Origin: Nitrospirales bacterium
GTDB taxonomy: Bacteria; Nitrospirota; Nitrospiria; Nitrospirales; UBA8639
DNA: 64,000 nt
NCBI GenBank assembly: GCA_022828225.1
Contig: JAJEJG010000024.1
Location: 1 to 64,000 of the forward strand
Reading direction: 5' to 3'
Numbering within the stretch: the first letter of the stretch is position 1; each line of letters starts with the position of its first letter. Shown here one piece after another: positions 155 through 63,330 of this stretch. The position numbers and the translations under genes were made by a program. Below the pieces are notes generated by a model, which saw nothing but the letters and a program-made list of their open reading frames with translations, had not been told where the DNA came from and did no database searches.

Positions 155-943
155 TTACATTTTGAACTTGTTCTTCTTCTTGATGTCGAAGTTGGCTTCC
201 ACGGTCGCACCGTCCTTGACTTCCACTTCCGCAGTCACGTTGCCGGCCACCGGGTGCCAAGCCAGGACTTTGTGTTTGCCCGCGGGAACGTCCTTGATCT
301 CAAAGGACCCGTCGCCACCGGACACGCCGAAATGCCCGTTGCTCACGGGCAGAAACCAGGCTTGCATGAATTCGTGCTGGTCACATTGCAACCGGAGAAC
401 GGAACCTTTCCTGGCCATCCGCATCTTGATTTTCTTGTCCAGCTTGTCGCCCTTCTTGGCCAACCCGATGTTGAACAGGGTCGAGGATTTGGCGCCGAGC
501 ACGTCAAAGCTGTGGGGGTTGTGCAAAACCCCTTCTTTGGACTTGGGATCATTGGGATCGGCATCCGTATTTTCCACGATGAAGTTCCCTTTGTTGACCA
601 ACACACCGGTAAAGGGCAGGAACTCACACAACTTGGCAATCACGGTCGGCGTCGTCTTGAAGCCTTTGTCCTTGATGCCGCGAACCGACACGATCGCATT
701 CTTGAGCCCTTTGTTTCCATCCACTTCGACTTCCTTCAACAAACGCGTATCATCCCCTTTTTTGCTGGGATTTTGTTTACAAAAAGCCGGATTGGGAAAC
801 TTGGAAAAGGCAAACTCTTTTGCCGCTACGGGTTTGCCGGAATACATGACTTTCCCCTTGATGGTTCCACCGGCTTGAGCAATCAGTGGCATTGCAACAA
901 GCAACCCACCAAGGCACAAAGTAAGCAACTGACGAGTCCTCAT
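155..943 (-). CDS. Secreted cupredoxin-like protein with C-terminal carboxypeptidase-regulatory-like domain
   Basis: 262 residues with a signal peptide (about 1-24), so periplasmic or exported. A beta-rich N-terminal part is followed by a histidine in NPHSFD and then C187-x2-H190-x2-M193, the ligand order of type 1 copper or the C-terminal half of CuA. The last 60 residues (GDGSFEIKDVPAG, then AWHP) resemble the CarboxypepD_reg beta-sandwich fold. The paralogues at 5207-6118 and 6131-7042 share the same landmarks: an x-C-x-F-x-P-F motif, LFN, QC-x2-H-x2-M, DG-x-F and WHP. It has its own promoter and terminator, so it is probably monocistronic. Copper binding is inferred; no enzymatic activity can be assigned. 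Confidence 0.8.
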   Translation of the reverse strand: MRTRQLLTLCLGGLLVAMPLIAQAGGTIKGKVMYSGKPVAAKEFAFSKFPNPAFCKQNPSKKGDDTRLLKEVEVDGNKGLKNAIVSVRGIKDKGFKTTPTVIAKLCEFLPFTGVLVNKGNFIVENTDADPNDPKSKEGVLHNPHSFDVLGAKSSTLFNIGLAKKGDKLDKKIKMRMARKGSVLRLQCDQHEFMQAWFLPVSNGHFGVSGGDGSFEIKDVPAGKHKVLAWHPVAGNVTAEVEVKDGATVEANFDIKKKNKFKM

Positions 944-1157: not shown

Positions 1158-3101
1158 TTAACGGGCATTCGAAACCGACGGGCCATCCCTTATCGAAAAG
1201 GGTGCCCGCGCCTCTGCGAGCATCGTGAGCATTTCCCGGAAACGCTCCGGCAATTCATCGGCTTGCGCAATAGGGCTGGAACACAATCGGTCGGTGCACA
1301 CATAGGCGAATGGACCTGCAACCTTCGGGAAGGTGACCTCGCCGATGGAAAGGGAATCGACGCGGGGATCCAAGAACCGGACCAGTTTCCCCGGCGCGTA
1401 CATGGCCAGGCTGCGGTCAAAGAGGCGCCGGGCCTCAGCCTGATTTTTTTCGCCCACCACCACGATATGAACGGGATAATAGAGGAAACGGTGGAGGGCA
1501 CGACCCGTGTGCGCAACCGGCAGATTGCCGGCCTCCACGATCATTTGCAGAATTGTTTCGGCCCTTTCCCTGTACCGAAGGTCCTGGGTCAGATAAAACA
1601 AGTCGGAAAAGACCAGTGAGAGCGCGGCATTGACCTGCAGATCCTTATGGGGGAATTTCAACAGTCCCAGGGAAGAAGCGGACGGCGTCCGGTCGAAATA
1701 ACCTCCCCCTTGGCTGTCCTCAAACAACCGGACGGAATCCTCGATGATCGTTTCAGCCTGCTTCAGGTAAGAAGACGAGCCGGTCGTCAAAAAAGCCGCG
1801 ATCAAGGCGTCCGCGAAAAGGACCTGATCGGCAAGCAACCCGAACTCCTTGGGATGACCGTCGTGAATTAGATGTGCCAAACCCCGGCCGGGTTGATAGC
1901 GTTCCTTGTATAACTGTCCGAGCGTGTTGAGGGCAAACTCGCGAGCCTCCGCATCTCCCAGGACCTGCGAAACCCTGAGAGCCGTCTTGATCATCAAGGC
2001 GTTCCAGTCGGTCAGCTTCGTCCGGTCCACAAAGGGAATGCCGATGGACAGACGTTGCGATTCCTCCAGGGCAAAAAATTTCTCACCGGACATGTTGGCG
2101 CCAGGGCGGTTCGGGTTCCGGACGTCGGCGTCCTGACTGGCATAAAAACCCACACGTTCCCGGTCGGCAAGAAACCGCATGACGTATCCCATGGTCCGCT
2201 CGACCACCTCGCGGTACCGTGTCAGGCCGGTGACTTGATACGCCTCCAAATAATTGAGCAGATTGGTCGCCTGGGTGGAAAGCAGCTTTTCATAATGCGG
2301 GTGTAACCAATCCGCCTGCTCGGCATAGCGAAAGAAACCGCCCCAGACCGGATCATGGAGTTTCATTTGTTGATCCAGGGTCAACAACGCCATGTGCCGC
2401 CACTCCGCATCCCGGGACCAAAAATGGTGGGAAAAGGCCAACGTGACGGCCTCGGGTTCGAAAAATTTCGGCGCGTCCCGAAACCCGCCGGATACGGGGT
2501 CGAAGGACTGCTTCATCACTTCGAGGATTTGAGCCAGCATCGCCGGATGAAGGCGCCCATGAGACTGCCGGCTTGCCCGCTGTGCCGATTCCACCTGTTC
2601 CCAGATCCGGGCAACCCGTTCGGCCATGTCCTGCTTGTTTTCCCGGTAAAACGCATCCGACGTGCGCAACACTTCGAGCATGGCCTCGGGCGCCAACGCA
2701 TTCGCCTGGAAAAGAATCTCCCCTGAAGGCAGCAGGACACTGGTGGTCGGCCAGCCGCCGTGCCTATACCGGGCCGCAATATCCGGATGTTGATCGGTTT
2801 CGACCCGGACCGGGATGAATCCGGCATTCAGCAACGTGACCACCTCGGGGTCGACGTACGTCGTCTCATCCATCACGTGACAGGCATGGCACCACACGGC
2901 CGTAAGATCCAGCAGGATCAGCTTGTCTTCCGCGTGCGCACGTTCGAACGCCTCGGCTCCCCATGCGGCCCAGTGGACGGCCGGCGCAGAAGTCGCTCGT
3001 TGATCGCTCGCCAGCCCGGTCGCTGGAAACCAGACGATCACATACAGGAAAAAATAGATGAACCGGGGAGATAGGAAAAAACCGATGCCGGAATACCTCA
3101 T
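1158..3101 (-). CDS. DUF255 (YyaL-type) thioredoxin-like protein, exported
   Basis: 647 residues from the ATG at 3101; an in-frame TTG at 3137 is also possible. After a hydrophobic export segment (about 10-32) comes the DUF255 thioredoxin-fold domain with WCHACHVMD in place of the usual CxxC active site. A long alpha-helical part follows, typical of the six-hairpin glycosidase or N-acylglucosamine-epimerase-like half of YyaL proteins. The family is usually cytosolic and around 690 residues or more, so the export segment and shorter C-terminus are unusual. It is the last gene of the minus-strand run starting at 7042. The biochemical role of the family is not established; a periplasmic redox or folding job is inferred only from the location and the CxxC motif. 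Confidence 0.8.
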   Translation of the reverse strand: MRYSGIGFFLSPRFIYFFLYVIVWFPATGLASDQRATSAPAVHWAAWGAEAFERAHAEDKLILLDLTAVWCHACHVMDETTYVDPEVVTLLNAGFIPVRVETDQHPDIAARYRHGGWPTTSVLLPSGEILFQANALAPEAMLEVLRTSDAFYRENKQDMAERVARIWEQVESAQRASRQSHGRLHPAMLAQILEVMKQSFDPVSGGFRDAPKFFEPEAVTLAFSHHFWSRDAEWRHMALLTLDQQMKLHDPVWGGFFRYAEQADWLHPHYEKLLSTQATNLLNYLEAYQVTGLTRYREVVERTMGYVMRFLADRERVGFYASQDADVRNPNRPGANMSGEKFFALEESQRLSIGIPFVDRTKLTDWNALMIKTALRVSQVLGDAEAREFALNTLGQLYKERYQPGRGLAHLIHDGHPKEFGLLADQVLFADALIAAFLTTGSSSYLKQAETIIEDSVRLFEDSQGGGYFDRTPSASSLGLLKFPHKDLQVNAALSLVFSDLFYLTQDLRYRERAETILQMIVEAGNLPVAHTGRALHRFLYYPVHIVVVGEKNQAEARRLFDRSLAMYAPGKLVRFLDPRVDSLSIGEVTFPKVAGPFAYVCTDRLCSSPIAQADELPERFREMLTMLAEARAPFSIRDGPSVSNAR

Positions 3102-3169
3102 GGCCGTTATTCTAGAGAAAGGTCGTCGCCTACTCAATGGAACGCCGGGCCGTCAAGGCGGCTGGGGCG

Positions 3170-4528
3170 TCAGGCCTCGGGCGAGGCCGAGAGGAGACGC
3201 GCAATGGCTCCCGCTGCGGTGGCGCGAACGGCTTCGTTCTGATCTTTCATGAGCGGTTTGAGGCGGGGAATCAGCTCTCGTCCACCGACCCGGCCCAGCG
3301 ATCTGGTCGCTGAAATTTTGGGTTTCGGTACAGGATCGTTGAGCAGGAGCAGCAAAGGTCCCACCACGTCGCGGGCGCGGCCATGCCCCAATGCCTTCGC
3401 CACGGAAGAACGCAGGCCCGGATTCTGTTGCCCCATCAAATCCCGCACGGTTCCGGCCACGACACTGAACGGGCTGCTCAATTGCAGTAAACCCGCGATG
3501 GCCGCAGCCCGCACACCCATATTGTGATCCTGCAAAGCCCGGGTCAAAGGAAAGACCGCCGTTTCGGCTTTGAGCTTCCCCAACGTCACCGCCGCCACGC
3601 TGCGGACGGCCGGCACGGGATCGGCCAGTGCCTTAATCAGGAAAGGGACGCCTTCGGCCGAACCGAGTTTCCCCAGCGAGGCCGCCGCGGCCGCGCGAAT
3701 CGACGGCTGTTTGTCGCGAAGCCCCAGTTCGAGCAGCGGCAACCCCTTGGGATCCCCGATTTCGCCGACCATGCGCAGGGCCCCTCCTCGTTCATAGCCT
3801 TCCGGCACGTTGGTCGCCTGCGCCACGGTCTGCCAGTGTTCCTTTTGCCCGAGTCGATACAGGGCCGCGGCCGCGGCAACCTGCACGACCCGGTGCTCAT
3901 CCTTCAACAACGGGACGATCAGGGAAATGGACCCGGGATCGCCCCATCGCCCCAAAGCTTTCAAGACCGTGACCCTGACCAGGCCCGCCTTGTCCTTGAG
4001 CGCGTTGTGAAAGCTCTTCGCTTGTCGCCCGGACGGCAACTTGCCCATACCCTCGGCAACCAAGACGCGAATCATGCCCGACCCGTCACTGAGCCCATCC
4101 TGAAAATACGGAACCACCTCATCGGACGGAATCTCCTTCAACGCCGAATAGGCCGCCCCTCGCACTTGCTCGCGCATATCCGACCGGAACGGGAGAATGC
4201 TCTGGACGGCGAGTTCCCGCAGCAGCCCTTCGTCCTTTCCGTTCGCCTTGACGAATGCCTCATACGCATCGATGCCCTCCGCGGTTTTGCCGAGCCGTAC
4301 CAAACCCAGCATCTTGAGCCGCGATGACGCCCGCTGCCATTCCGCGTCACCGAGAAGAGGCTCGACGAGTTCCAAAGCCTTCTGAAAATCACCTTGCTCG
4401 AAGGCCCGCTCGGCCAGACCCAACTGCTCGTCGGAAGACGTTTGTCCCGTCACGGACCCCGCCGCCAACAGAACACCGCAGACAACGCCCATAAACACCG
4501 TGGTCCATTGCCGAACCGTCATAGCCAT
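3170..4528 (-). CDS. Secreted HEAT-repeat protein
   Basis: 452 residues with a signal peptide (about 1-29), a short TPR-like helical segment (about 34-110), then some eight HEAT/PBS-lyase-type repeats with recurring motifs such as R-x-x-A-A-x-A-L-G-x-L. Such arrays are protein-protein scaffolds. It starts 12 bases after the 4541-5203 gene, and its GAAGGA ribosome site lies inside a small tandem duplication at that junction. As part of the 7042-1158 operon it may organise the periplasmic copper-like proteins, but no partner can be identified from the sequence. Confidence 0.8.
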   Translation of the reverse strand: MAMTVRQWTTVFMGVVCGVLLAAGSVTGQTSSDEQLGLAERAFEQGDFQKALELVEPLLGDAEWQRASSRLKMLGLVRLGKTAEGIDAYEAFVKANGKDEGLLRELAVQSILPFRSDMREQVRGAAYSALKEIPSDEVVPYFQDGLSDGSGMIRVLVAEGMGKLPSGRQAKSFHNALKDKAGLVRVTVLKALGRWGDPGSISLIVPLLKDEHRVVQVAAAAALYRLGQKEHWQTVAQATNVPEGYERGGALRMVGEIGDPKGLPLLELGLRDKQPSIRAAAAASLGKLGSAEGVPFLIKALADPVPAVRSVAAVTLGKLKAETAVFPLTRALQDHNMGVRAAAIAGLLQLSSPFSVVAGTVRDLMGQQNPGLRSSVAKALGHGRARDVVGPLLLLLNDPVPKPKISATRSLGRVGGRELIPRLKPLMKDQNEAVRATAAGAIARLLSASPEA

Positions 4529-4540
4529 TTATCCTTCATC

Positions 4541-5203
4541 CTATCCTTCATCCGCCTGTTTTTCGGTAGCCTGAAACATTCGATACCCCAACGGCGTTTC
4601 AAAAAAATACTCAGGCTGTTTCGAGAGCACAACGCGGCCATATTCCACGGACCAATCCCGATCCAGACTTACGAGCTTCAACAACAACTGCCGCGCTTCA
4701 TCGACCCATTGATAATACGCCTCCCGGTGGTCGTGGCGTTCCACCGCCACTTCGTACAACGTGGCCTGCTGCTCGCCGACCATGGCATCGCCGATCCGGG
4801 ACCGGGAGACTTCCCCGTCCAACGTCACCGCCAGGGGAAGCATATAATCCAGCGTCAACGGAACCGCCATGACCAAACGACGCTGGGACAGAATGTACCA
4901 CACCTGCTGTTTGTCCAGCCGGACGATGGTGACCGTGGCATAGCCCATATCCGTTTTGACCCCTCCCCGGTGTTCGATCCGGTAGCGATCCCCCTTCACG
5001 AACAACTGGGCATGTGAGGTCTTTCCATTGGTGCGCCACGTCAGACGAGCTGAAAATTCCAGCTCATCCCCATTGCGTGATGCTGGAACGCCGGCACCGA
5101 AAGCGAAAACCCCGGAAATGAGCATCAGCAGAAAAGAGAGCAGGAAAACGGGAAGGAGCCGATACCACCACGGCCGGGTGGGACGGAAGGGAATGACAGC
5201 CAT
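4541..5203 (-). CDS. Exported protein of unknown function, LolA/DUF4412-like
   Basis: 220 residues. A short basic N-terminus leads to one hydrophobic segment (about 13-36), either an uncleaved anchor or a signal peptide. The remainder alternates short hydrophobic and charged beta strands (for example RYRIEHRGG and QVWYILSQRR), as seen in LolA-like or DUF4412-like beta half-barrels that bind hydrophobic ligands. It begins 3 bases after the stop of the 5207-6118 gene, so the two are probably translationally coupled. I do not recognise a specific family. A lipid-binding or outer-membrane-targeting role is only a suggestion from the fold pattern. Confidence 0.6.
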   Translation of the reverse strand: MAVIPFRPTRPWWYRLLPVFLLSFLLMLISGVFAFGAGVPASRNGDELEFSARLTWRTNGKTSHAQLFVKGDRYRIEHRGGVKTDMGYATVTIVRLDKQQVWYILSQRRLVMAVPLTLDYMLPLAVTLDGEVSRSRIGDAMVGEQQATLYEVAVERHDHREAYYQWVDEARQLLLKLVSLDRDWSVEYGRVVLSKQPEYFFETPLGYRMFQATEKQADEG

Positions 5204-5206
5204 GAG

Positions 5207-6118
5207 TTACTGGCGCTCGAGAAGAGGTTCGATCGTGAATTCCCGGCCCAACGCCGCGGGAGTGAACCGGGGAGGCGTCCGAACGGTGAGCGCGGTTTTG
5301 CGCCGTCCCGGCGAAGGCAATTGAAAGTCGATCGTCAGGTTCGCGCCAGGCTCGATGGTCACCGGCTTTTTCATCACCTGCTTGACGCCGGGATGCCACG
5401 CCCGAATGTCATACGTGCCGGGCGGCACGCCTTCGAGGGAAAACCGTCCGTTCTCATCGGTCAGCACGTAGTAGGGATTGTCCACCGCAATGGCCCAGCT
5501 CTCCATATACGCGTGAAACCCGCATTGCATCACGAACGTCCGGCGTTTCTTGCTCAACTGGAATTGCCGGACCAACGACTCCCCTGGCCTATGGTCATGG
5601 GTCGCATGCAGATCGCCTCGTTGATGCCGGCGATTGAAGGGCAGCGGTGAATTGAACAACACCCGGGTCCCCATGGCGGTCGAGGTCTCGTAGGCCTGAA
5701 TATCATGCATCACGGGGTCCATGTTCACCACTTCGATACCATGCCCGCTTCGCACGACCGTCGTAAAGGGCGAAAACCGGCAATCCCGCGCTTCGACCCT
5801 CGGAACGGAAAGGGAGAACGGTTTGCCTTCCGTGACGCCTTCCAACAACACGACGACGTTCAGGACCTGGCCTTGCTCATTCACCAGAAAATCACGAAGG
5901 AGCCGCCATCCGTTCCCGTTGGAGATCCGTCCGCAATATTCGGGGTCCGGGAAAATGACCAGGTTGTACGCCTTGGGGTCCGGCACCGGTCCCGAAAGGG
6001 TGACCGTCCCCTGGACCGTTCCGCCGCCGGCAATCTCTTTGACTTCATATCCCCACAGAGAAGAAGCCGGGATCGAGAGAATCAGACACAAGCCCGTGAT
6101 CAGAAACGCCTTCATCAA
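5207..6118 (-). CDS. Secreted cupredoxin-like / CarboxypepD_reg protein, paralogue 2
   Basis: 303 residues, signal peptide about 1-23, good ribosome site (GGAGGG) before the ATG. The central domain shows MHDIQ (probable His ligand), a His-rich loop (HQRGDLHATHDH) and C199-x2-H202-x2-M205. A CarboxypepD_reg-like domain follows from about 212 (NPYYVLTDENGRF, then AWHPG). The protein is closely similar to the neighbour at 6131-7042 (both QCGFHxYM and NPYYxxT), which suggests a tandem duplication. It belongs to the 7042-1158 operon. An electron-transfer or copper-binding role in the periplasm is inferred from the ligand pattern. Confidence 0.8.
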   Translation of the reverse strand: MMKAFLITGLCLILSIPASSLWGYEVKEIAGGGTVQGTVTLSGPVPDPKAYNLVIFPDPEYCGRISNGNGWRLLRDFLVNEQGQVLNVVVLLEGVTEGKPFSLSVPRVEARDCRFSPFTTVVRSGHGIEVVNMDPVMHDIQAYETSTAMGTRVLFNSPLPFNRRHQRGDLHATHDHRPGESLVRQFQLSKKRRTFVMQCGFHAYMESWAIAVDNPYYVLTDENGRFSLEGVPPGTYDIRAWHPGVKQVMKKPVTIEPGANLTIDFQLPSPGRRKTALTVRTPPRFTPAALGREFTIEPLLERQ

Positions 6119-6130
6119 CCCTCCGAACCG

Positions 6131-7042
6131 TCAGGGCTTCTGTAACCTGACCGACGGAATGATTTCCACACCCTCCCCGAGTAACTCCAAGCCGAAGTGG
6201 GGATTTTCCTGCATTTCATGCACGCTTCTTCGTCCCTTCACGGCTTCATATTGGAAATCCTGCGTGACCGTGCCGTTGGCCGGGACGGTAATGTTCCGGT
6301 CCAGGTATTTTTTCATACCGGCGTGCCAGACCGTCAACGTATACTCGCCCGGGGGCACGTCCGTAAGTTCGAACCGTCCATCTTCCTTGGTAATCGCATA
6401 GTAGGGATTTTTGACCACGACGCCCCAGGAAAACATGTACGGATGGAAACCGCATTGCATGACAAAAATGTTGCGGCCTTTCCTGAGGTGCACTTTTTGA
6501 ATCATGGGCTTGCCCGGCAAATGCTTATGACTGTGCAACATGCCCAGCACCTTGTGAAACGCGTTCATGGGTAACGGTCGATTGAACAAGACTCTCGCGC
6601 CCCGCACCCGAGCGGTTTCGTATCCCTGGATATCGTGTTCAACGGGATCCATGTTGATCACCGTGATTTCGTCCTGATCGCGCAACACGTTCACGAATGG
6701 CAGGAAATCGCAGTCCATGGCTTCGATCAACACCTTGGGCACCTCGAACCGCTTCCCTTTTTCCACCCCGTTGAGTATGACGACCGCGTCCTTGAGGCTG
6801 CCGTCCTCCCCGATGATGAAATCCTCCACGATCCGCCAACCCGTGCCGGTGGAAATGCGACCGCAATACACCGCGTCCGGGATCGTCACCAGATTGAAAG
6901 CCATGGGTCGCGGGGTGTTACCGGTAATCGCCACGTGACCTGTGATGGTCCCCCCATCTGTGACCGATATCTCCTCATAGGCCCATCCTGGAGACACGAA
7001 CAACCCCAAGACCAAGCACAACGTCCACGTCCGCACTGCCAT
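6131..7042 (-). CDS. Secreted cupredoxin-like / CarboxypepD_reg protein, paralogue 3
   Basis: 303 residues from the ATG at 7042, chosen because GGGAGGT sits at ideal spacing and a signal peptide (about 1-22) follows at once; the upstream extension to 7111 has neither. Landmarks: EHDIQGYE (His ligand candidate), a His-rich loop (LHSHKHLPG), C197-x2-H200-x2-M203, then NPYYAITKEDGRF and VWHAG of the C-terminal beta sandwich. It is the first gene of a six-gene operon and lies directly downstream of the multicopper oxidase terminator, with its own promoter. The proposed copper site is inferred. Confidence 0.8.
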   Translation of the reverse strand: MAVRTWTLCLVLGLFVSPGWAYEEISVTDGGTITGHVAITGNTPRPMAFNLVTIPDAVYCGRISTGTGWRIVEDFIIGEDGSLKDAVVILNGVEKGKRFEVPKVLIEAMDCDFLPFVNVLRDQDEITVINMDPVEHDIQGYETARVRGARVLFNRPLPMNAFHKVLGMLHSHKHLPGKPMIQKVHLRKGRNIFVMQCGFHPYMFSWGVVVKNPYYAITKEDGRFELTDVPPGEYTLTVWHAGMKKYLDRNITVPANGTVTQDFQYEAVKGRRSVHEMQENPHFGLELLGEGVEIIPSVRLQKP

Positions 7043-7074
7043 GAATACCTCCCTCTGCCCTCGATCAATACCCT

Positions 7075-7104
7075 GGTATACGGAAAACTTATGCGAGAGA
7101 TCAA
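7075..7104 (-). promoter_or_regulatory. Probable promoter of the 7042-1158 operon
   Basis: Minus strand: TTGATC (7104-7099), 18-base spacer, TATACC (7080-7075), upstream of the ATG at 7042 and just after the multicopper oxidase terminator. It would start the operon independently of that gene. Confidence 0.5.
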
Positions 7105-7113
7105 TGCTCACGG

Positions 7114-7180: not shown

Positions 7181-10100
7181 TTATGGCTTGAACGAGATCG
7201 GTCGAACGCTACCTTCTTCAGATTGACCCTCTTTGGCTTCCTTGACTCCCGGGGAAGCCCCGCTAAGCGGGAGGATTCTCTGGTCGTTCTTGGACAGCAC
7301 GCGGAAATAGCCCCATTGCCCGGACTGGGAATACGGCAAGCGTGCATTGCTGTACACGTAATCGCCAGGCATGGAATACGGGCCGCCGGCCGAAGAAATA
7401 AACGCGTCGATCCCTTCGGACCCGGAGAATTCCACGACGCTGATGCGATCGGCTCCTTCCATGAACGGCTCGATGGGCCATTCATGTTTTTCCAGCGTGA
7501 ACATACCGTTTTGCTCATTGCTGGCGCCGAACACGTGAATCCGGACCGGGTCACCCGCATGAGCCTCGATAATCGGCGTGGCCGGTTCATTCGGTTCATC
7601 GACGTTACAGGGTTGGAACATCCGTCCCAACGAGCACCCCTGTTCTTCACGATACAGATAGGGCTCGTTTCTGTAATTGACGCCGACCAATCCGGCCACG
7701 TTTTGCACGTACGGCATGAAGCTGGTGCCGATGATATTGTCTTCATCCTGGAAGAACAGGGCCACGTCACGATAGTTGGCCCGGTGCTCATTTCCGGGAA
7801 CCGTCCGGTCGACAATTACGTCGGCGGTCCAACTGTTCTTCTCGGAAATGTCGGCTCCGGTCTTCGGATCGCGATACTGGGAGCCCTTGGGACCGATCAC
7901 GATCCCGCCGAACAACCCGTTCCGCGGGTTCATGGCCACGTTGCCCCAATCCCACACCAGGGATTGCGTTTCCCCGACGGCCGGATCGGCATAATAGGTA
8001 TAGGTCCGGCTTTCTCCGGGAGCCACGGTTTGATCACCGGGATTGTTACCCAGGTTCACCCCTTGAGAATCCTTGGGATCGAACGCCAGGGAGAACGCCG
8101 AGAATGAAGCCCGGCCTTCTTTCATCTTGTTGGTCAGTTTCACCTTGAGACAATCACCCACGTTGGCCCGCAAGGTCAGCGGCATGGGCTGGAATTCTCC
8201 GGAAACCTTGGCCACCTCCTCTTCCAGGACGTAGATCTTGGCATCCGGGTTCTTCACTTCGATCGTCCGTTCAAAGTCCACTTCGATGGCTTCTTCCACG
8301 TTGGGATTGAACGCCATCTGAGGATAATCAATGGCCACGACGTTGAAATTCTTCACCGGGGCATCGGCCGGACACACCGGCAACGGCTTCTTGATGCCGG
8401 GTCCGCCGTATGCCGCATTCGGCAACGGTTTCAAGTCCGGCACTTCTTCATCCAAGACCCGGATCAACCCCCACGAGCCTTCGGACAGCTTCGAACTCCG
8501 GCCGTTGAAATACATGTAATCGCCGGACTGGAGTCTCGTCCCACCGGCCTGCGGCACCACCAGGTCGTACCGTTCCGCAATGCCGATGTGAATGGAATTC
8601 TTCCGGTTGGCGTCACCGGCGTAGCGTTCGGTCAGGAAGTTATGACCGGACACGGTAAAGACGTTACTCTCGTTCATCGTCACGTCGATCAGCCGGAAGA
8701 CGATGGCATCGCCCAGATACGCCCGCAACGTGACCGTACTCGGATCCCCGTGCGTGCCGCTGCTGAATATTTGCGAGGTCTCCGGATTATTGGCCAACCG
8801 CTGCGCAAAGGGTTCGGCCCGGAAATTCAAGGCCCCGCCCGTCGTATGCGTGCCGCCGTTGAGGAACGGCATCGGCGTCATCTTGATCAGGTCGTTCGGC
8901 GGCATTTGGAAGGACACGGTCCGCCCGGCTTCCAACGCCACTTCCACGGGTTGGCCCGGAGGATTCCCGGCCGTCACCACGTTGACCGTATGAGGCACCG
9001 TATCCATGATTTGAACCATCAATTCACGGAAACTGCCGCTCACCCCATACCCCACGGGTTCCACCGTGTGGATATCCATCACCGGACCGGTCCGTTTGGC
9101 TTCACCGGTCGCCGGATCATGCCACGTCGACCCGAACGGCTCGATCAGGAACGAACACACCGCGCCGTGAGGCCACGTGGTCCCGCCGAACGCGTGGTCA
9201 TGACAGAACACGGACCCGACGTCGGCATCCGCCCAAAACCGCTGCCGCACGAACTCCACGGTCACGATGTCCCCGACCGGGTGATCGTGCTCCAACGGAG
9301 TCTTGAAGGTCAGGGTCTGCGCCCCATCACTCGGCGCCGCGGCTTCACCACCGCCGCCCCCACCGGGCACTTGCAGTTGCTGTCCGACGCTCAGCATATT
9401 GGCGTCCGCCAGACCGTTCATGCTCACCAGCGTCGCCACGTCGGTGCCGTGCCGCATCGCGATCCCCCCAAGGGTATCCCCGGGGTTCACCGTATACATG
9501 CCGCCGCCCGCGCCACTTGCCGACGCGGTTTCGCCTGAACTCCCGATGGCGACGATACGCTTCACTTCCGAACCCGGCACGTTATCCGCGCCGACGAGAA
9601 TGACCGTGCCGACGTGGTACTGCTGGGCGTTCGTCACGTGAATGGTCCGGTCACCCTTGCCGGCCGCCTTGGTGAACTTGGCATTCATGGGCACCGGCAA
9701 CCCCTTGTCCGACTTCTTCTCGAATTGGGTAAAGGGCCGCATGGACTGTTCATACGAAAATCCTGAAATCACCCCGTCGGACGCCTGGTTGTCGAATTGC
9801 ACGAAATGGAAGTGCGTATTGATCTTGGACGACTGGAAATTCGTAAAGTCGTCGTCCAGCCATTCGCTGGTCAACATCCAATCCATGCAATCATAGATAT
9901 TGGCGCGGAAGACCAACGGCACCTTCAAATCATTGTTGTTCCGAATGGCTTCCTCTTCGTCGTGCACCACGTACAACAACCCGTTCGGATCGACCACGGC
10001 CGGCTGATCGCCCTGGGCCGCGGACAACTCGATCGGAAGCTTGATGAAGTGGACATTGTACTCCTGGGAACCCGCACGGTCCGGACACAGGCTCCAGCGC

Positions 10101-12325
10101 CCGTTTTCGCCCGGCTTCGCCGGCTTCACGGACGGCTGGCCGTCTTCATCCAGATGGATCATTTCCAGCCACGGGGCCGGGTTCCGGTCAGGGGAGAACG
10201 GTACGCGTTTGCCGAAGTGAGGCGTCAACCACGGCCACGCGACTTTCCCCGTCGTCGGCTCGAACCAGATGGGCCGGCGTTTCCCGGCTTCATAGCCCTG
10301 CCATTCCGGATGATATTTGGGATTCTCGGTCGTGCTTTCTTTTTCACTCATCGCACGTTCGCCGTCCCAGGTCCAATCGATCACGGTCGCGTCATACGAC
10401 TTCAACTGGCCGATCTCGTCTTCCGTGTGGCCGGGAAGTCCGCGGGTCGGCAACTGCATTTCAACCCAATCGTAAATCCGAACCACGGCCGGCTCGGCGT
10501 TCCAATCGGTTTTTTGGCTGTTATCGACCAGGTTGAACTTCGTCCCGAACCAATTCACGGTTGTGCCGACCAATTGGTCTGAGGTGACCGGCTTGGCAAT
10601 GCGCCCGACACGATCCGGCAACTCACGGAGCGGAGCCATCACGTCGTTCTGGATGCCGGGCACTTGCAGGGTATTGTAAACCCGCCAGTACCCCCACATC
10701 CCGGCCACATAGTGGTGTGCCACGTGACAATGGAACAGGAAGTCACCGGCTAGATATTGACACAGCCCCGATCCGCACTCGGTCTCCAGGTCCAGCGCTT
10801 CGGACGGCCCGATCACTTCTACGTCCACGCGATCCGTCTTCGCACGAATAAGCGGATACTTCACGGGTCCGTTCTGTCCCTTGTGCCACATCGGCATCTG
10901 ATCCACTGCCCGCGGGCTCCGGGTCCACCGGATGGCGCCGCCGTGCGGATGGTGGGAATGGAACACTTCCGAGCCGCCGTGAACCAGCCGGTACTTCGCG
11001 GGATCACCCAAGTAACTCCGGGGGATCGTAGGGCCGGTATCGCCGAAGGTGTAGGAACTGTAGGCCATGGATTCGTCTTCAAAACCGAAGTACTCATGTT
11101 GAACGTGCATATTGTTGATACCGAACGGTTCGCTCCGGTAGTTCAGAGCCCGGGCTCCCGGCCGGTAGGCATCGGTCAACGGATCACGTTGCGGCAGGAA
11201 GTCGCCGTGCTTGTTCACCGGCCTGAACGCTTCGTCACCCACTTCGTGATAAATCAACACGAATTCCCGGAAATCCGGTCCCATGCCGTTCTGAATCATG
11301 GCTTGCCAGCCGCTCGGCATATCCGTAGCCGGGCCCGTACCCAGGGGATCCAGATACTTCGAACCGGCCGGTTCGACCACGAACACTCCGAACAGTCCCA
11401 TCACGGTCAACTCACGATCATTACTGTAACTGTGGAACTGGCGCCCCCCTTCCTGGGTATCGGGATGAATGTACCACTCCATTTCCACGGGCGTGGTTTC
11501 ACAATTCTCTTCGCATTCTTCATCGGGGCCATAGGCAATGGCATCAGGATTCGTCGTCGTCGCCGGTTGACCGGTTTTGCTGACCACCATGCTCGACCCG
11601 TTGATGTGAAGACTCACGTCCTCGCCGAATTCCAACGAATTCCGGAGCGTGACTTTCACGCAATCACCCTGGTTGCCGCGAATCACCAGGGGTTGGATGT
11701 ATTGCCCCTGGATCCCGTTCTTGACGCCGCCGGGATTATGATGTCCTTCTTCCTCGCGCGCTTCCGCGTTCTTGGCTTCCTCTTCCCGGACGTTCTCGAT
11801 GTTTTCCGTCAGCGCGTACATGTAGCCGGGATAGTAATCCAGCCATTGATTCAACGTGATTTCCACGTTGATCGCGGAAATATCGTAATGCTTCACCGGA
11901 GCCGTGGCCGGACACTTGCCGCCGCCCGTCATCGCCACCGGTTCAATGTCACTGTCGGAAGACAACAGGTAGTTGCCCTTGCCGGCGCCATATTGATGCA
12001 TCATGGACATCGTGTTGTAGCCGCCCGTGTTGGATTCGGACATTTCTTCCTGCATTTGCTGCATCAACCGCTCATGCTGCTTTTCAACAAGTGCGGCGCG
12101 CTCGGCTCTCCCCTCCTGGGCATTCTCAATGATAGTCTGCCCTTTGAGGCGTTCGGCCCAAGCGGGGGATTCGTGATTCATCCCCGAGGTTTGGATCACT
12201 GCGGCTGAATCGGAAACGTCGGATTCAGCGTTGGCAAGAGGAAGCACAAAGCACACCAAGGCCAACAGGCTTGCCCCTCCCAGAAAAGCAAATCGCTTGA
12301 TGGATACAGGATTAAAATGAAACAT
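7181..12325 (-). CDS. Giant multi-domain multicopper oxidase with embedded LysM domain
   Basis: 1714 residues with signal peptide (about 1-33) and a strong ribosome site (GAAGGAGG). Several cupredoxin domains can be traced. The first pair carries HSHHPHGG (about 457-464) and HCHVAHHYVAGM (532-543, with C533, H538 and M543), which supply type 1 and type 2/3 copper ligands as in laccases. A LysM peptidoglycan-binding domain (about 942-986) is inserted in a beta-rich linker. A further cupredoxin has VFCHDHAFGGTTWPHG (about 1038-1053). The C-terminal third keeps the fold rhythm (YFNGRSSKLSEGSWGLIRV) but has few ligands. Size and layout recall giant oxidases such as MofA and MnxG (Mn(II) oxidation), although ordinary copper or organic oxidation is equally possible. 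It is exported and, through LysM, may be held at the cell wall. Confidence 0.85.
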   Translation of the reverse strand: MFHFNPVSIKRFAFLGGASLLALVCFVLPLANAESDVSDSAAVIQTSGMNHESPAWAERLKGQTIIENAQEGRAERAALVEKQHERLMQQMQEEMSESNTGGYNTMSMMHQYGAGKGNYLLSSDSDIEPVAMTGGGKCPATAPVKHYDISAINVEITLNQWLDYYPGYMYALTENIENVREEEAKNAEAREEEGHHNPGGVKNGIQGQYIQPLVIRGNQGDCVKVTLRNSLEFGEDVSLHINGSSMVVSKTGQPATTTNPDAIAYGPDEECEENCETTPVEMEWYIHPDTQEGGRQFHSYSNDRELTVMGLFGVFVVEPAGSKYLDPLGTGPATDMPSGWQAMIQNGMGPDFREFVLIYHEVGDEAFRPVNKHGDFLPQRDPLTDAYRPGARALNYRSEPFGINNMHVQHEYFGFEDESMAYSSYTFGDTGPTIPRSYLGDPAKYRLVHGGSEVFHSHHPHGGAIRWTRSPRAVDQMPMWHKGQNGPVKYPLIRAKTDRVDVEVIGPSEALDLETECGSGLCQYLAGDFLFHCHVAHHYVAGMWGYWRVYNTLQVPGIQNDVMAPLRELPDRVGRIAKPVTSDQLVGTTVNWFGTKFNLVDNSQKTDWNAEPAVVRIYDWVEMQLPTRGLPGHTEDEIGQLKSYDATVIDWTWDGERAMSEKESTTENPKYHPEWQGYEAGKRRPIWFEPTTGKVAWPWLTPHFGKRVPFSPDRNPAPWLEMIHLDEDGQPSVKPAKPGENGRWSLCPDRAGSQEYNVHFIKLPIELSAAQGDQPAVVDPNGLLYVVHDEEEAIRNNNDLKVPLVFRANIYDCMDWMLTSEWLDDDFTNFQSSKINTHFHFVQFDNQASDGVISGFSYEQSMRPFTQFEKKSDKGLPVPMNAKFTKAAGKGDRTIHVTNAQQYHVGTVILVGADNVPGSEVKRIVAIGSSGETASASGAGGGMYTVNPGDTLGGIAMRHGTDVATLVSMNGLADANMLSVGQQLQVPGGGGGGEAAAPSDGAQTLTFKTPLEHDHPVGDIVTVEFVRQRFWADADVGSVFCHDHAFGGTTWPHGAVCSFLIEPFGSTWHDPATGEAKRTGPVMDIHTVEPVGYGVSGSFRELMVQIMDTVPHTVNVVTAGNPPGQPVEVALEAGRTVSFQMPPNDLIKMTPMPFLNGGTHTTGGALNFRAEPFAQRLANNPETSQIFSSGTHGDPSTVTLRAYLGDAIVFRLIDVTMNESNVFTVSGHNFLTERYAGDANRKNSIHIGIAERYDLVVPQAGGTRLQSGDYMYFNGRSSKLSEGSWGLIRVLDEEVPDLKPLPNAAYGGPGIKKPLPVCPADAPVKNFNVVAIDYPQMAFNPNVEEAIEVDFERTIEVKNPDAKIYVLEEEVAKVSGEFQPMPLTLRANVGDCLKVKLTNKMKEGRASFSAFSLAFDPKDSQGVNLGNNPGDQTVAPGESRTYTYYADPAVGETQSLVWDWGNVAMNPRNGLFGGIVIGPKGSQYRDPKTGADISEKNSWTADVIVDRTVPGNEHRANYRDVALFFQDEDNIIGTSFMPYVQNVAGLVGVNYRNEPYLYREEQGCSLGRMFQPCNVDEPNEPATPIIEAHAGDPVRIHVFGASNEQNGMFTLEKHEWPIEPFMEGADRISVVEFSGSEGIDAFISSAGGPYSMPGDYVYSNARLPYSQSGQWGYFRVLSKNDQRILPLSGASPGVKEAKEGQSEEGSVRPISFKP

Positions 12326-12490: not shown

Positions 12491-13348
12491 TTACCCCCGG
12501 CCGGTTTCGGACAGAATGCAGCGCTGAAAAGCCGTGCTCACCGCTTGAGTCACCGGGCCCGGGATGCGATCCCCAACCCGTACACCGTTCAGCGTGGAAA
12601 CGGGCAACACCTCGATGGTCGTCCCGATCAGAAACAGCTCATCGGCACTGGTCAATTCCTCCTCGGGAACCTCCCGTTCTTCAACGATGATCCCGGCTTT
12701 TCTCGCCAACTCCAACACCACGGCCCGGGTGACGCCGGCCAACAACTGGTCGCTCAGCGGGGCCGTGATGATGGTCCCGTCCCTGACCAGGCACACGTTG
12801 CTGGAGCAACCTTCCGTGACCAACCCGTCCTTCACCAGAATCGCTTCCATGGCCCCGGCATCGCAGGCTTCCTGTTTGGCCAGGACATTGGCCAGCAAGT
12901 TCAAGCTCTTGACCGAGCACCGGCCCCACCGGAGATCGGGCAAGGTGACGGCTGACACGCCCTCCCGTAAAAGCACGCCGTCGGTCCCGGCAATTCCTCG
13001 AAACGTCATCACGACGGTGGGCTTTGCCGGACTCGGAAAGAGGTGGGCCCGAGGAGCCACGCCACGGGTCAACTGGATGTACGCCAGACACTCGGCATAC
13101 TGACTCCGTTTCACACCCTCCCGGATCAGCGACTCCCATTCCGCTGCGAAGAGCGGAAGCGGTATGGAAACGGCCCGGGCGCTCGATTGCAATCGCAACA
13201 GGTGATCATGCAGCCGGAACGGAACGCCCCCATACGTGCGGACCACTTCGTACACGCCGTCGCCGAATTGAAACCCGCGATCTTCAATCGAGATGGTCGC
13301 CTGTTCAAGAGGAGAAAACTGTCCGTTGACGTATGCGATATCAGGCAT
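12491..13348 (-). CDS. dat: Class IV (PLP) aminotransferase, D-amino-acid transaminase type
   Basis: 285 residues covering the whole class IV fold: YVNGQF start, EDRGFQFGDGVYEV, the arginine cluster RLHDHLLRL, the PLP lysine in VKSLNLLANVLAKQEA, and TEGCSSNVCLV. These fit D-alanine (D-amino acid) transaminase, which makes D-Ala and D-Glu for cell wall or catabolism. Branched-chain transaminase or aminodeoxychorismate lyase are alternatives in the same family. It starts 14 bases after the chagasin-like gene and probably shares its transcript. Confidence 0.8.
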   Translation of the reverse strand: MPDIAYVNGQFSPLEQATISIEDRGFQFGDGVYEVVRTYGGVPFRLHDHLLRLQSSARAVSIPLPLFAAEWESLIREGVKRSQYAECLAYIQLTRGVAPRAHLFPSPAKPTVVMTFRGIAGTDGVLLREGVSAVTLPDLRWGRCSVKSLNLLANVLAKQEACDAGAMEAILVKDGLVTEGCSSNVCLVRDGTIITAPLSDQLLAGVTRAVVLELARKAGIIVEEREVPEEELTSADELFLIGTTIEVLPVSTLNGVRVGDRIPGPVTQAVSTAFQRCILSETGRG

Positions 13349-60677: not shown

Positions 60678-61760
60678 TTATTCAGGCGGGGGGATGGGTT
60701 TGTCCGGTTTTGGCGCACGCAGCGTTTCGAGATAGGCCGTGACGGCTCGGGCATCCTGGTCATCAAGCCCCAAGTTCGGCATGCGCGTGTGCTTCTTCAT
60801 GCCTTGCGGGTAACGGACCCAGCGATAGACCCAGGTGTCGTTGAGACGGAAACCCGCGCGGTCCAGGGCCGGTCCCACCAGACCACCGACGTCTCCGATG
60901 CTGTGACACCCGTTACAGCCGTATTTGTCGTAATACAGGCTCTTGCCTTTTTCTTCCAAGGCGACTCTTTCCGGCTCCGTCACAGTCAGGTCGGGACGCG
61001 CGATTTGAGTCATCTTCGGGCGCTTCGTGAAATTTTCCAAGGCGGACTTGGCGGCTTCGAATTGTTCCGCCACTTTTTCATAGGCCTCTTCTTCGGGAAG
61101 CACGATTTCCTCTTCGTCCTCGTCGTAGTCCTCCAGATCGTCCTCGTCGTCTTCCATATCCATGTCTTCGTCATCTTCTTCGGCTTCTTCTTCGGCCTCG
61201 GCCCTGGCGGCTTCTTCGGCTTCCTGTTTCGCCAAGGCGTCATCCATGGCCTGTTTGGCTTGATCATGTGCCGCCTCGACCGCCTTGAACTGGGATTCCA
61301 ATTCGGCTTTCCTTCCTTCAACGTCGAACGTCAACGACCCGCCGTGAAGCGTTCGCACGTAGCCGACGACGGCCCAGAGTTCCTCTTCGGACAGCGTATA
61401 TTTGAACGTCGGCATGGTCGAGACCGCGAAGTAGTTTTCATCGTCGAGCACTTCCTGCAACGTGGTATCACGCATATCCCGGGAAATCGTGTCAAAGATT
61501 TCCTTGTCGGAGAAGGTCGACATCGCTTCGGACTCCGACAGGTCACGCGGACGGGGGTCCGGCATGCGTCCCCAATTAAAGCCTTCCTGCTGTTGTCCGC
61601 TTTCGCCGTGACAGTGCATGCAGTAATGATTGTAGAGTTTTCGGCCTTTTGCCGTCCGTTCATCTTCAAGCAAGGCGCAGCCGCTCGTCACGGCAAACAC
61701 CGCGACGACCACGATGGCGACCTTGCTCAATACCCGCTGCATGCCTTGTTCTCCCTTCAT
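60678..61760 (-). CDS. Diheme cytochrome c lipoprotein with acidic linker
   Basis: 360 residues. Lipobox SGC at Cys 28 predicts a membrane-anchored periplasmic protein. Two class I haem sites: CMHCH (about 47-51) with axial Met candidate MPTF, and CNGCH (about 282-286) with MPNL. Between them runs a helical, extremely acidic stretch (about 183-225, nearly all E and D). The start overlaps the stop of the 61757 gene (ATGA). It is the last gene of the operon, and probably an electron carrier to a terminal oxidase or from a haem-b protein. Confidence 0.85.
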   Translation of the reverse strand: MKGEQGMQRVLSKVAIVVVAVFAVTSGCALLEDERTAKGRKLYNHYCMHCHGESGQQQEGFNWGRMPDPRPRDLSESEAMSTFSDKEIFDTISRDMRDTTLQEVLDDENYFAVSTMPTFKYTLSEEELWAVVGYVRTLHGGSLTFDVEGRKAELESQFKAVEAAHDQAKQAMDDALAKQEAEEAARAEAEEEAEEDDEDMDMEDDEDDLEDYDEDEEEIVLPEEEAYEKVAEQFEAAKSALENFTKRPKMTQIARPDLTVTEPERVALEEKGKSLYYDKYGCNGCHSIGDVGGLVGPALDRAGFRLNDTWVYRWVRYPQGMKKHTRMPNLGLDDQDARAVTAYLETLRAPKPDKPIPPPE

Positions 61761-62593
61761 GATTCGTTACCCCTCCGAATTTTTCTCACCAGGAAAAACT
61801 CAAAGCCGGCAGCAAGCACGATGCCCAACACGACGTATCCATAAATGGAATTGTCCGGCGGCGGCTCGGCTCGAAGGTACCACCATGACGAAACGGCTTT
61901 TTGCGACCCTTTTTCTTTCACGGCTCCATCCACGATTTCCCCGTCCCAAAACGCGAACGCCACGTTTCGCCATTCACCGGGCGTGACTTGTACGTCCAAC
62001 TCGTCAGCGGTTTGCAAGGGCCGGGAAAAGACGACGCGCCACGTTCCGTCCTGCCAGGCCCCCGTTGCCGAGACGTCCTGGTTTTCCTGCGGCCGAAGCG
62101 TTTTGAAGCCCTTGGCCGTCATATCGGTGGCTTTGCCGTGTTCTTTTTTCCAATACCAGATGTTGACGTCTCCTCCCTCGACCTGGAGCATTTCCTGTCC
62201 ATGGGCGAAGTGGGCCATTTTGTCGCCGACCATGAACTCGACTGCGGCGGCATCCGCGGCATCTTCAGACGGGTCGGCATACTCCAGCAGGATCGCCAGA
62301 TCCTGGCCGTTATGCATCCCGCGAACCTTCACGGATTTTACCGTGACTTCCTGAATACGGTCCGGCCAATGGACTTGTGGGGCCAACTTGAATTCCGCCG
62401 GCGCGATCGTATTCCACACGGCGGCGTTCGGATCATCCGCAGGGACGGCTCCCTCCGTTAAAACCAGACGAACGGCTACGCTTCCGGTTTCACCTTCCGG
62501 CGGCGGATCGCTCGCCAACACGCAGGAAGCCCAGACTCCCGTCACCATGAGGGTGAGCCCGAGGGCGACGTTGAAGATCTTCTTATATCCCAT
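61757..62593 (-). CDS. Ethylbenzene-dehydrogenase-related haem-b protein (NXR gamma-like)
   Basis: 278 residues. Signal peptide (about 1-27), a DOMON/EB_dh-type beta-sandwich with VAVRLVLTEGAVP, GQDLAILLEYADPS, MAHFAHGQEMLQVEGGDVNIWYWKKEHG and TWRVVFSRPLQ, and a C-terminal transmembrane anchor (about 252-270). Related proteins are the haem-b subunits of DMSO-reductase-type complexes, including candidate nitrite oxidoreductase gamma subunits. No NXR alpha or beta lies in this window, so it may serve the surrounding cytochrome complex instead. Confidence 0.8.
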   Translation of the reverse strand: MGYKKIFNVALGLTLMVTGVWASCVLASDPPPEGETGSVAVRLVLTEGAVPADDPNAAVWNTIAPAEFKLAPQVHWPDRIQEVTVKSVKVRGMHNGQDLAILLEYADPSEDAADAAAVEFMVGDKMAHFAHGQEMLQVEGGDVNIWYWKKEHGKATDMTAKGFKTLRPQENQDVSATGAWQDGTWRVVFSRPLQTADELDVQVTPGEWRNVAFAFWDGEIVDGAVKEKGSQKAVSSWWYLRAEPPPDNSIYGYVVLGIVLAAGFEFFLVRKIRRGNES

Positions 62594-62604
62594 TTTCCTG
62601 CTCC

Positions 62605-63330
62605 CTATTCCTCTTCCTCCCAGGTCCGTGGAGACTGGCCGGCACCGTCATATTCACCCATGATAATTTTCCAGATCCATTCGTCCGGCAATTCCACTTC
62701 CCACCGCGGCATGGCCGATTTCCAAGGCATGGCTTCAACCGGAAGCCCGACGCCGCCTTTTTTGATCCTCCAGAACAGATAGGATTCCTGTAATTGGGCG
62801 ATGGTTCCCGGATCACTGAAATTCGCCGGAGGCGGATTGAAACCCACCGCCGCCGGACCTTTCCCATCGAAATTGGCTCCGTGACAAGGCGAACAAAACG
62901 CCGCATAGAGGCCTTTCCCCATCATGATATTTTCCGGCGTCGTCGGATACGGGTTGGCCAGCCCGACAAACTCGCCGGGAGGCGCGGGATGAATGGTTCG
63001 ATTTTCCGCCGGCGGCATATCGCTGGGGGCCAGCCGGGTGTACGCCTGCCAACCCACCAACAAGGGAAACAACACGAACACCAGAATACGTGCGGTCCCG
63101 GCAATACCCGCCTGTCCCGAGCCGGTGAGGAATCGCCCGACCGGCCCCATGAATTCATCGAGGCCTCCTCCGCTCATGGTGTAGAAAATCATCGCGGAGG
63201 CAAAGGTCAGCGCCAGGTACAGGAAAATCAAACTGGCCGGGAGCGGTGCCGTAAACAACGGGAGTATGAATTTGAGAAACACATACATTCCCACCAACAG
63301 GATAGCCGTTTTCGCAAGAGGACCTTTCAT
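62605..63330 (-). CDS. Membrane-bound monohaem cytochrome c
   Basis: 241 residues. About three transmembrane segments (9-27, 32-52, 82-98), then a periplasmic class I cytochrome domain with CSPCH (about 146-150) and distal Met candidates in MPWKSAMPRW. It begins 15 bases after the upstream cytochrome gene and ends 11 bases before the next. Confidence 0.85.
   Translation of the reverse strand: MKGPLAKTAILLVGMYVFLKFILPLFTAPLPASLIFLYLALTFASAMIFYTMSGGGLDEFMGPVGRFLTGSGQAGIAGTARILVFVLFPLLVGWQAYTRLAPSDMPPAENRTIHPAPPGEFVGLANPYPTTPENIMMGKGLYAAFCSPCHGANFDGKGPAAVGFNPPPANFSDPGTIAQLQESYLFWRIKKGGVGLPVEAMPWKSAMPRWEVELPDEWIWKIIMGEYDGAGQSPRTWEEEE

Follow-up and report, generated by a model that had tools for sequence, protein, structure and literature searches.

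A periplasmic multicopper oxidase resembling the manganese oxidase of strain SG-1 has been described in Nitrospina gracilis and Ca. Nitrospira defluvii. Its gene shares a cluster with NXR and a pair of cupredoxin-like proteins, and Mn(III)-based protection against reactive oxygen was proposed for it; no LysM domain is mentioned in that account (Luecker et al., 2013, PMC3578206). MnxG of Bacillus sp. PL-12 and SG-1 (PDB ID: 9bxa), a Mn(II)/Mn(III) oxidase consisting of a multi-cupredoxin chain, requires MnxE and MnxF (PMC5622069). LysM domains of the full consensus are carried by MltD-type transglycosylases and LytE-type endopeptidases, that is, by hydrolases of the cell wall, where they are placed terminally or as tandem copies. 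The oxidoreductase described here carries the same full consensus, and in contrast to these hydrolases its LysM domain is single and internal.

The window, namely the whole 64,000-nucleotide stretch of DNA analyzed in this study, belongs to a 2.36 Mb genome in 24 contigs (G000) of a marine nitrite-oxidizing bacterium of the Nitrospira group; its family, UBA8639, corresponds to lineage IV Nitrospira (PMC12342949). The UBA8639 MAG itself falls in this family, at locus L069, which has an 871-aa frame matching that of G280. The Nitrospirota-like origin that the initial annotation had proposed was upheld. The reading frame of interest starts with ATG and runs on the minus strand from 12325 to 7181, a strand that the annotation had not given, and its stated size of 1714 residues was confirmed.

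7181..12325, minus strand: MnxG-like multicopper oxidase with an internal LysM domain, 1714 aa (reading frame, Pfam, PDB comparison)
12227..12325, minus strand: probable Sec signal peptide, residues 1-33, ending ...PLANA/ES (sequence, by eye)

Judging from this N-terminus, the oxidase is probably secreted into the periplasm. Comparison of the chain with itself revealed a degenerate triple repeat (about residues 131-572, 740-1312, and 1313-1714; E = 5e-13 for repeat 1 against 3 and 8e-22 for repeat 2 against 3), each unit of which is probably composed of two cupredoxin domains, giving about six in total.

Among solved structures, Bacillus MnxG 9bxa was the top relative by a wide score (E = 9.4e-73, 248 bits), and its alignment was colinear over most of the chain, while the second-ranked copper oxidase reached 22 bits (E of about 1e-4). 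Likewise, the NCBIfam MnxG model gave 113 bits against 12 for ascorbate oxidase. In both score and alignment, the protein was thus closer to MnxG than to laccases, CueO, or ascorbate oxidase, as expected from the initial suggestion of a very large multi-cupredoxin oxidase akin to MnxG. Assignment as an ordinary laccase was rejected on the score gap (248 vs 22 bits; 113 vs 12). Since 113 bits lies far under the cut-off of 3100 set for the MnxG equivalog NF041487, the protein is a relative of MnxG and no equivalog, and by sequence it is an MnxG-type large multicopper oxidase distant from MnxG itself. The two proteins share the HCH..M and HxH motifs and the ligand order, with L3/L4 ahead of L1/L2, whereas the beta-module between the HxH motifs and the LysM domain described below are both present in the window protein and both lacking in MnxG. 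Judged by description, lineage, and synteny, the enzyme described in N. gracilis and Ca. N. defluvii very probably belongs to the same family. Giant MnxG-like oxidases occur in one or more copies in nearly all Nitrospirales sampled. Outside the nitrite oxidizers, relatives were found in Actinomycetota and on Streptomyces, Priestia, and haloarchaeal plasmids. One actinobacterial relative (L068, 6443-13036; 2198 aa, 32% identity) has the beta-module together with a C-terminal chitobiase-like domain.

The copper ligands were assigned from the family alignment as follows.

10943..10960, minus strand: HSHHPH, residues 456-461, holding T1 His456 plus the trinuclear pair His459/His461; conservation 99-100% over 82 homologues
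10697..10732, minus strand: HCHVAHHYVAGM, residues 532-543, with trinuclear His532/His534 and T1 Cys533/His538/Met543 (also from the MnxG alignment)
9806..9814, minus strand: HFH, residues 838-840, first of two trinuclear HxH motifs, located in the leading cupredoxin of repeat 2
9194..9202, minus strand: HDH, residues 1042-1044, second trinuclear HxH motif

The copper motifs initially pointed out, including C533 and HSHHPH, were accordingly located at residues 532-543 (C533, H538, M543) and 456-461. A full T1 set of a blue multicopper oxidase (H456, C533, H538, M543) and a trinuclear set of eight His residues in four HxH-type motifs (H459, H461, H532, H534, H838, H840, H1042, H1044) were both present, and the ligand His and Cys residues were 99-100% conserved across the 82 homologues, including the actinobacterial protein at 32% identity. 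M543 was read off the sequence and is invariant in alignment A1, where it is numbered M413. The residue of 9bxa opposite H538 is Ala340, which we take to be the H340A T1 variant of MnxG and hence probably engineered. The segment HCHVAHHYVAGM of repeat 1 is matched by YFNGRSSKLSEGSWG in repeat 2 and YSNARLPYSQSGQWG in repeat 3, and since these counterparts lack the HCH..H..M motif, the protein has just one complete T1 plus trinuclear set. Repeat 1 supplies the H456-M543 group from its second half, and repeat 2 supplies H838, H840, H1042, and H1044 from its first half; by analogy with the multicopper oxidase family, these two halves would pair into one copper site.

The LysM domain lies between the two HxH motifs of repeat 2, within a larger insertion.

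9260..9709, minus strand: beta-module, about residues 873-1022, inserted between two HxH motifs; kept without LysM in homologues and absent in Bacillus MnxG (alignments)
9317..9541, minus strand: LysM with Gly/Ser-rich linkers, about residues 929-1003, in place of a three-residue turn (alignment)
9365..9496, minus strand: LysM domain, residues 944-987 (Pfam, genome search, and beta-alpha-alpha-beta order in low-confidence AlphaFold2 models)

A domain search, named in the initial annotation as a possible refutation, instead established the LysM identity well beyond chance: PF01476 matched residues 944-987 over its full profile (1-43/43), scoring 52.1 bits where the cut-off is 20.9 (E = 6.4e-14), and an independent six-frame search of the genome returned LysM at window positions 9365-9496 with 58.5 bits. 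AlphaFold2 models built with family alignments were of low confidence (mean pLDDT 51.3 for residues 131-1110 and 45.8 for 742-1714) and thus serve only for the local order of elements at LysM, which in both was beta-alpha-alpha-beta at a local pLDDT of about 60-80. The surrounding segment, initially viewed as a beta-rich linker (about residues 905-1010), is a separate beta-module (about 873-1022) that LysM-free homologues share. In the MnxG chain, the HIHFVKFD..DSAVLP segment is followed directly by GQTIRYEWY..FFFHDH, whereas in the present oxidase family a beta-module of ~80 residues intervenes at that point (GDRTIHVTNAQQYHVGTVILVG...EVKRIVAI...TLTFKTPLEHDHPVGDIV). Most LysM-free homologues have a hairpin turn of three residues in this module (GDK, DGN, or KGN), and LysM homologues have at the same turn 64-80 residues comprising a Gly/Ser linker, LysM, and a Gly/Ser/Ala linker, the splice point being fixed against 54 LysM-free alignment rows. 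The arrangement is, as read from the alignments, an insertion within an insertion, with LysM nested in the beta-module and the beta-module in the cupredoxin. Placed on flexible linkers at a hairpin tip, LysM should project without breaking the copper site. The consensus YtV.pGDtLG.IA..hGt.v..L...Ngl......VGQ.LqvP was kept in 28 copies, and mean pairwise dN/dS among ten close genes was 0.104 in LysM, compared with 0.041 over residues 137-870 and 0.019 over residues 1010-1110; LysM is under clear purifying selection. An assembly artefact as the source of the fusion was ruled out because the fusion recurs in the single-contig genomes G009 and G010, both of which contain the LysM form alone, with no LysM-free copy.

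The LysM form was found at one conserved locus in 31 of the 49 genomes of family UBA8639, representing all ten genera (11/14 genomes in the genus of the window, 6/21 in genus g9), and was absent among the matches listed for 221 other genomes of the class. The window genome also encodes a LysM-free paralogue (G000:C22:231297-236099) that is ~80% identical and has identical copper ligands. It differs in having the turn GDK at the site of the LysM insert and W and G in place of C1041 and C1057, and in lying at another locus without cupredoxin neighbours. Genes flanking this paralogue (L070) were named by eye: a histidine-kinase-like and an NtrC-type regulator gene lie together to one side of it, and a gene for a secreted protein lies to the opposite side. 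The C1041/C1057 pair was considered as a LysM-linked trait and ruled out, as it is present in LysM-free L060, L061, L063, L064, and L082 and absent in LysM-bearing L122.

In trees computed without the insert, the clade of LysM-free paralogues was nested among the LysM genes. Four state changes are needed, and constraining all LysM genes other than L122 to be monophyletic was rejected (AU p = 4.9e-5). An early gain followed by loss in the paralogue clade is therefore preferred. The change is polarized by the LysM-free genes that occupy the syntenic locus in another family, and by LysM-free L063. The simplest reading of these sequence trees suggests that LysM was gained in the family ancestor, lost in the paralogue, and lost again at the same locus in L060 and L061, with the gene of G025 (L122) as a mosaic; two gains, or conversion, may alternatively account for the pattern. 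L122 (G025:C50) lies at the syntenic locus and has LysM in a backbone resembling the LysM-free paralogue, and is probably the product of conversion between paralogues. At the syntenic locus of G021, a divergent LysM-free oxidase was observed (L084, G021:C6), with which the close copies L087 and L089 group; some of genus g9 has apparently undergone replacement of this locus.

The gene neighbourhood of the oxidase was as follows.

155..943, minus strand: third blue-copper-like protein, His-Cys-His-Met invariant
1158..3137, minus strand: DUF255/DsbH-type thioredoxin protein, cluster-conserved within the family
3170..4528, minus strand: HEAT-repeat protein, cluster-conserved
4541..5203, minus strand: secreted-type protein, 220 aa, conserved in the cluster, no family assigned
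5207..6118, minus strand: second blue-copper-like protein, architecture as at 6131..7111
6131..7111, minus strand: blue-copper-like protein with an invariant His-Cys-His-Met set and a carboxypeptidase-regulatory-like domain; next gene in most examined loci
12491..13348, minus strand: class IV aminotransferase on the upstream side, a neighbour by synteny only

The block common across the family comprises DUF192, Rieske, chagasin-like I42, the aminotransferase, the oxidase, two blue-copper proteins, the 220-aa protein, HEAT, DsbH/DUF255, and the third blue-copper protein, and a shorter block in another family, without LysM, comprises the oxidase, two blue-copper proteins, HEAT, and the third blue-copper protein. 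All three blue-copper-like proteins have an invariant His-Cys-His-Met set (about 126-129 homologues each, in overlapping sets) and are probably paralogues. Among the annotated neighbours of the oxidase gene, as far as annotation goes, no candidate for the MnxE/MnxF subunits was found.

These comparisons establish the family by sequence, the copper ligands, the nested insertion with its conservation and its restriction to one lineage, and the synteny; the periplasmic location, the substrate, and peptidoglycan binding are inferred. The Sec signal would export the protein, which would fold as a soluble periplasmic enzyme, and LysM would hold this enzyme on peptidoglycan; one-electron donors would reduce the T1 copper, and the trinuclear site would reduce O2. 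Mn(II) is the first candidate donor, followed by Cu(I) or Fe(II), or the neighbouring blue-copper proteins, a metal being favored because of the kinship with MnxG. We hold this overall picture, of a periplasmic MnxG-like oxidase with one T1 plus trinuclear centre that is LysM-tethered to peptidoglycan and passes electrons from a metal or blue-copper donor to O2, with moderate confidence. Since the host is Gram-negative, the target of LysM would be periplasmic peptidoglycan and no exposed cell wall, and the other LysM carriers of the genome, an MltD-like peptidoglycan transglycosylase with two LysM domains and a small lipoprotein-like protein, are consistent with the use of LysM for peptidoglycan. 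LysM-free copies with unchanged copper ligands are common, indicating that LysM is dispensable for the oxidase itself; its loss at the same locus in L060 and L061 and its lack in most of genus g9 count against the tether. More tentatively, and with considerable doubt, lineage IV Nitrospira might have evolved, through domains inserted one within another, a metal oxidase anchored to peptidoglycan, confining Mn(III) or metal oxidation to a fixed periplasmic layer beside nitrite oxidoreductase.

The same losses bear on the view that the LysM insertion is tolerated and almost neutral, with no tethering role, the protein functioning like the LysM-free oxidase in defence against oxidative stress, whether Mn(III)-based or otherwise. 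At least two losses on the preferred history, the absence of LysM from the paralogue, and a dN/dS 2.5 times the core value all fit this view, but a dN/dS of 0.10 means purifying selection, the consensus is kept throughout the 28 copies, and LysM is present in G025 in a backbone otherwise like the LysM-free paralogue; we regard near-neutrality as unlikely. Anchoring might instead be directed to a glycan outside the cell, such as chitin, GlcNAc-rich biofilm, or host sponge matrix, with the oxidase working outside. Chitin is also bound by LysM (PMC4004799), several close genomes are apparently sponge-associated from their record names, and the distant actinobacterial relative has a chitobiase C-terminal-like domain. 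However, the LysM form occurs in all ten genera, including those whose record names suggest no sponge, and no outer-membrane export signal was apparent on inspection of the sequence by eye; we consider external anchoring quite improbable. As for the reaction itself, the oxidase could serve as an electron-transfer partner of nitrite oxidation, in an O2-reducing or cupredoxin-linked respiratory branch, rather than as a metal oxidase. Such a role agrees with the two blue-copper proteins adjoining its gene and with the placement of the gene, in both N. defluvii and N. gracilis, in a cluster associated with NXR (Luecker et al., 2013, PMC3578206), whereas the nearest characterized relative is a Mn oxidase and relatives extend beyond nitrite oxidizers to the Actinomycetota and plasmids noted above. 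We consider a respiratory role improbable, and retain the tethered periplasmic oxidase as the preferred reading.

A literature search of partial coverage, and hence of weak evidential value, found no description of LysM in an MnxG-like or other multicopper oxidase. In the titles and abstracts of the top matches for LysM with multicopper oxidase, the two were apparently separate proteins; the single paper matching Nitrospira, multicopper, and LysM left LysM unmentioned in its main text, and the N. marina and Nitrospirales genome literature made no mention of the oxidase under the terms searched. What is new appears to be the LysM variant, the LysM-free oxidase and the enzyme family being already known. 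This conserved, lineage-restricted insertion, in a genome whose paralogue lacks LysM and is 80% identical, constitutes a natural experiment on the site and role of the enzyme, offers a testable link between nitrite oxidizers and metal or oxidative-stress chemistry, and is a clean example of a binding domain nested in a copper enzyme with all active-site ligands kept.

Elsewhere in the window, at 60678-63330, an EB_dh (NxrC-like) gene was observed between two cytochrome c genes, as expected in a nitrite oxidizer. Also in the genome, a 1173-aa frame (G000:C18:19812-20846; L130, L131), perhaps NxrA or some other large molybdoenzyme, gave a weak narG match of 60.9 bits, below the cut-off.
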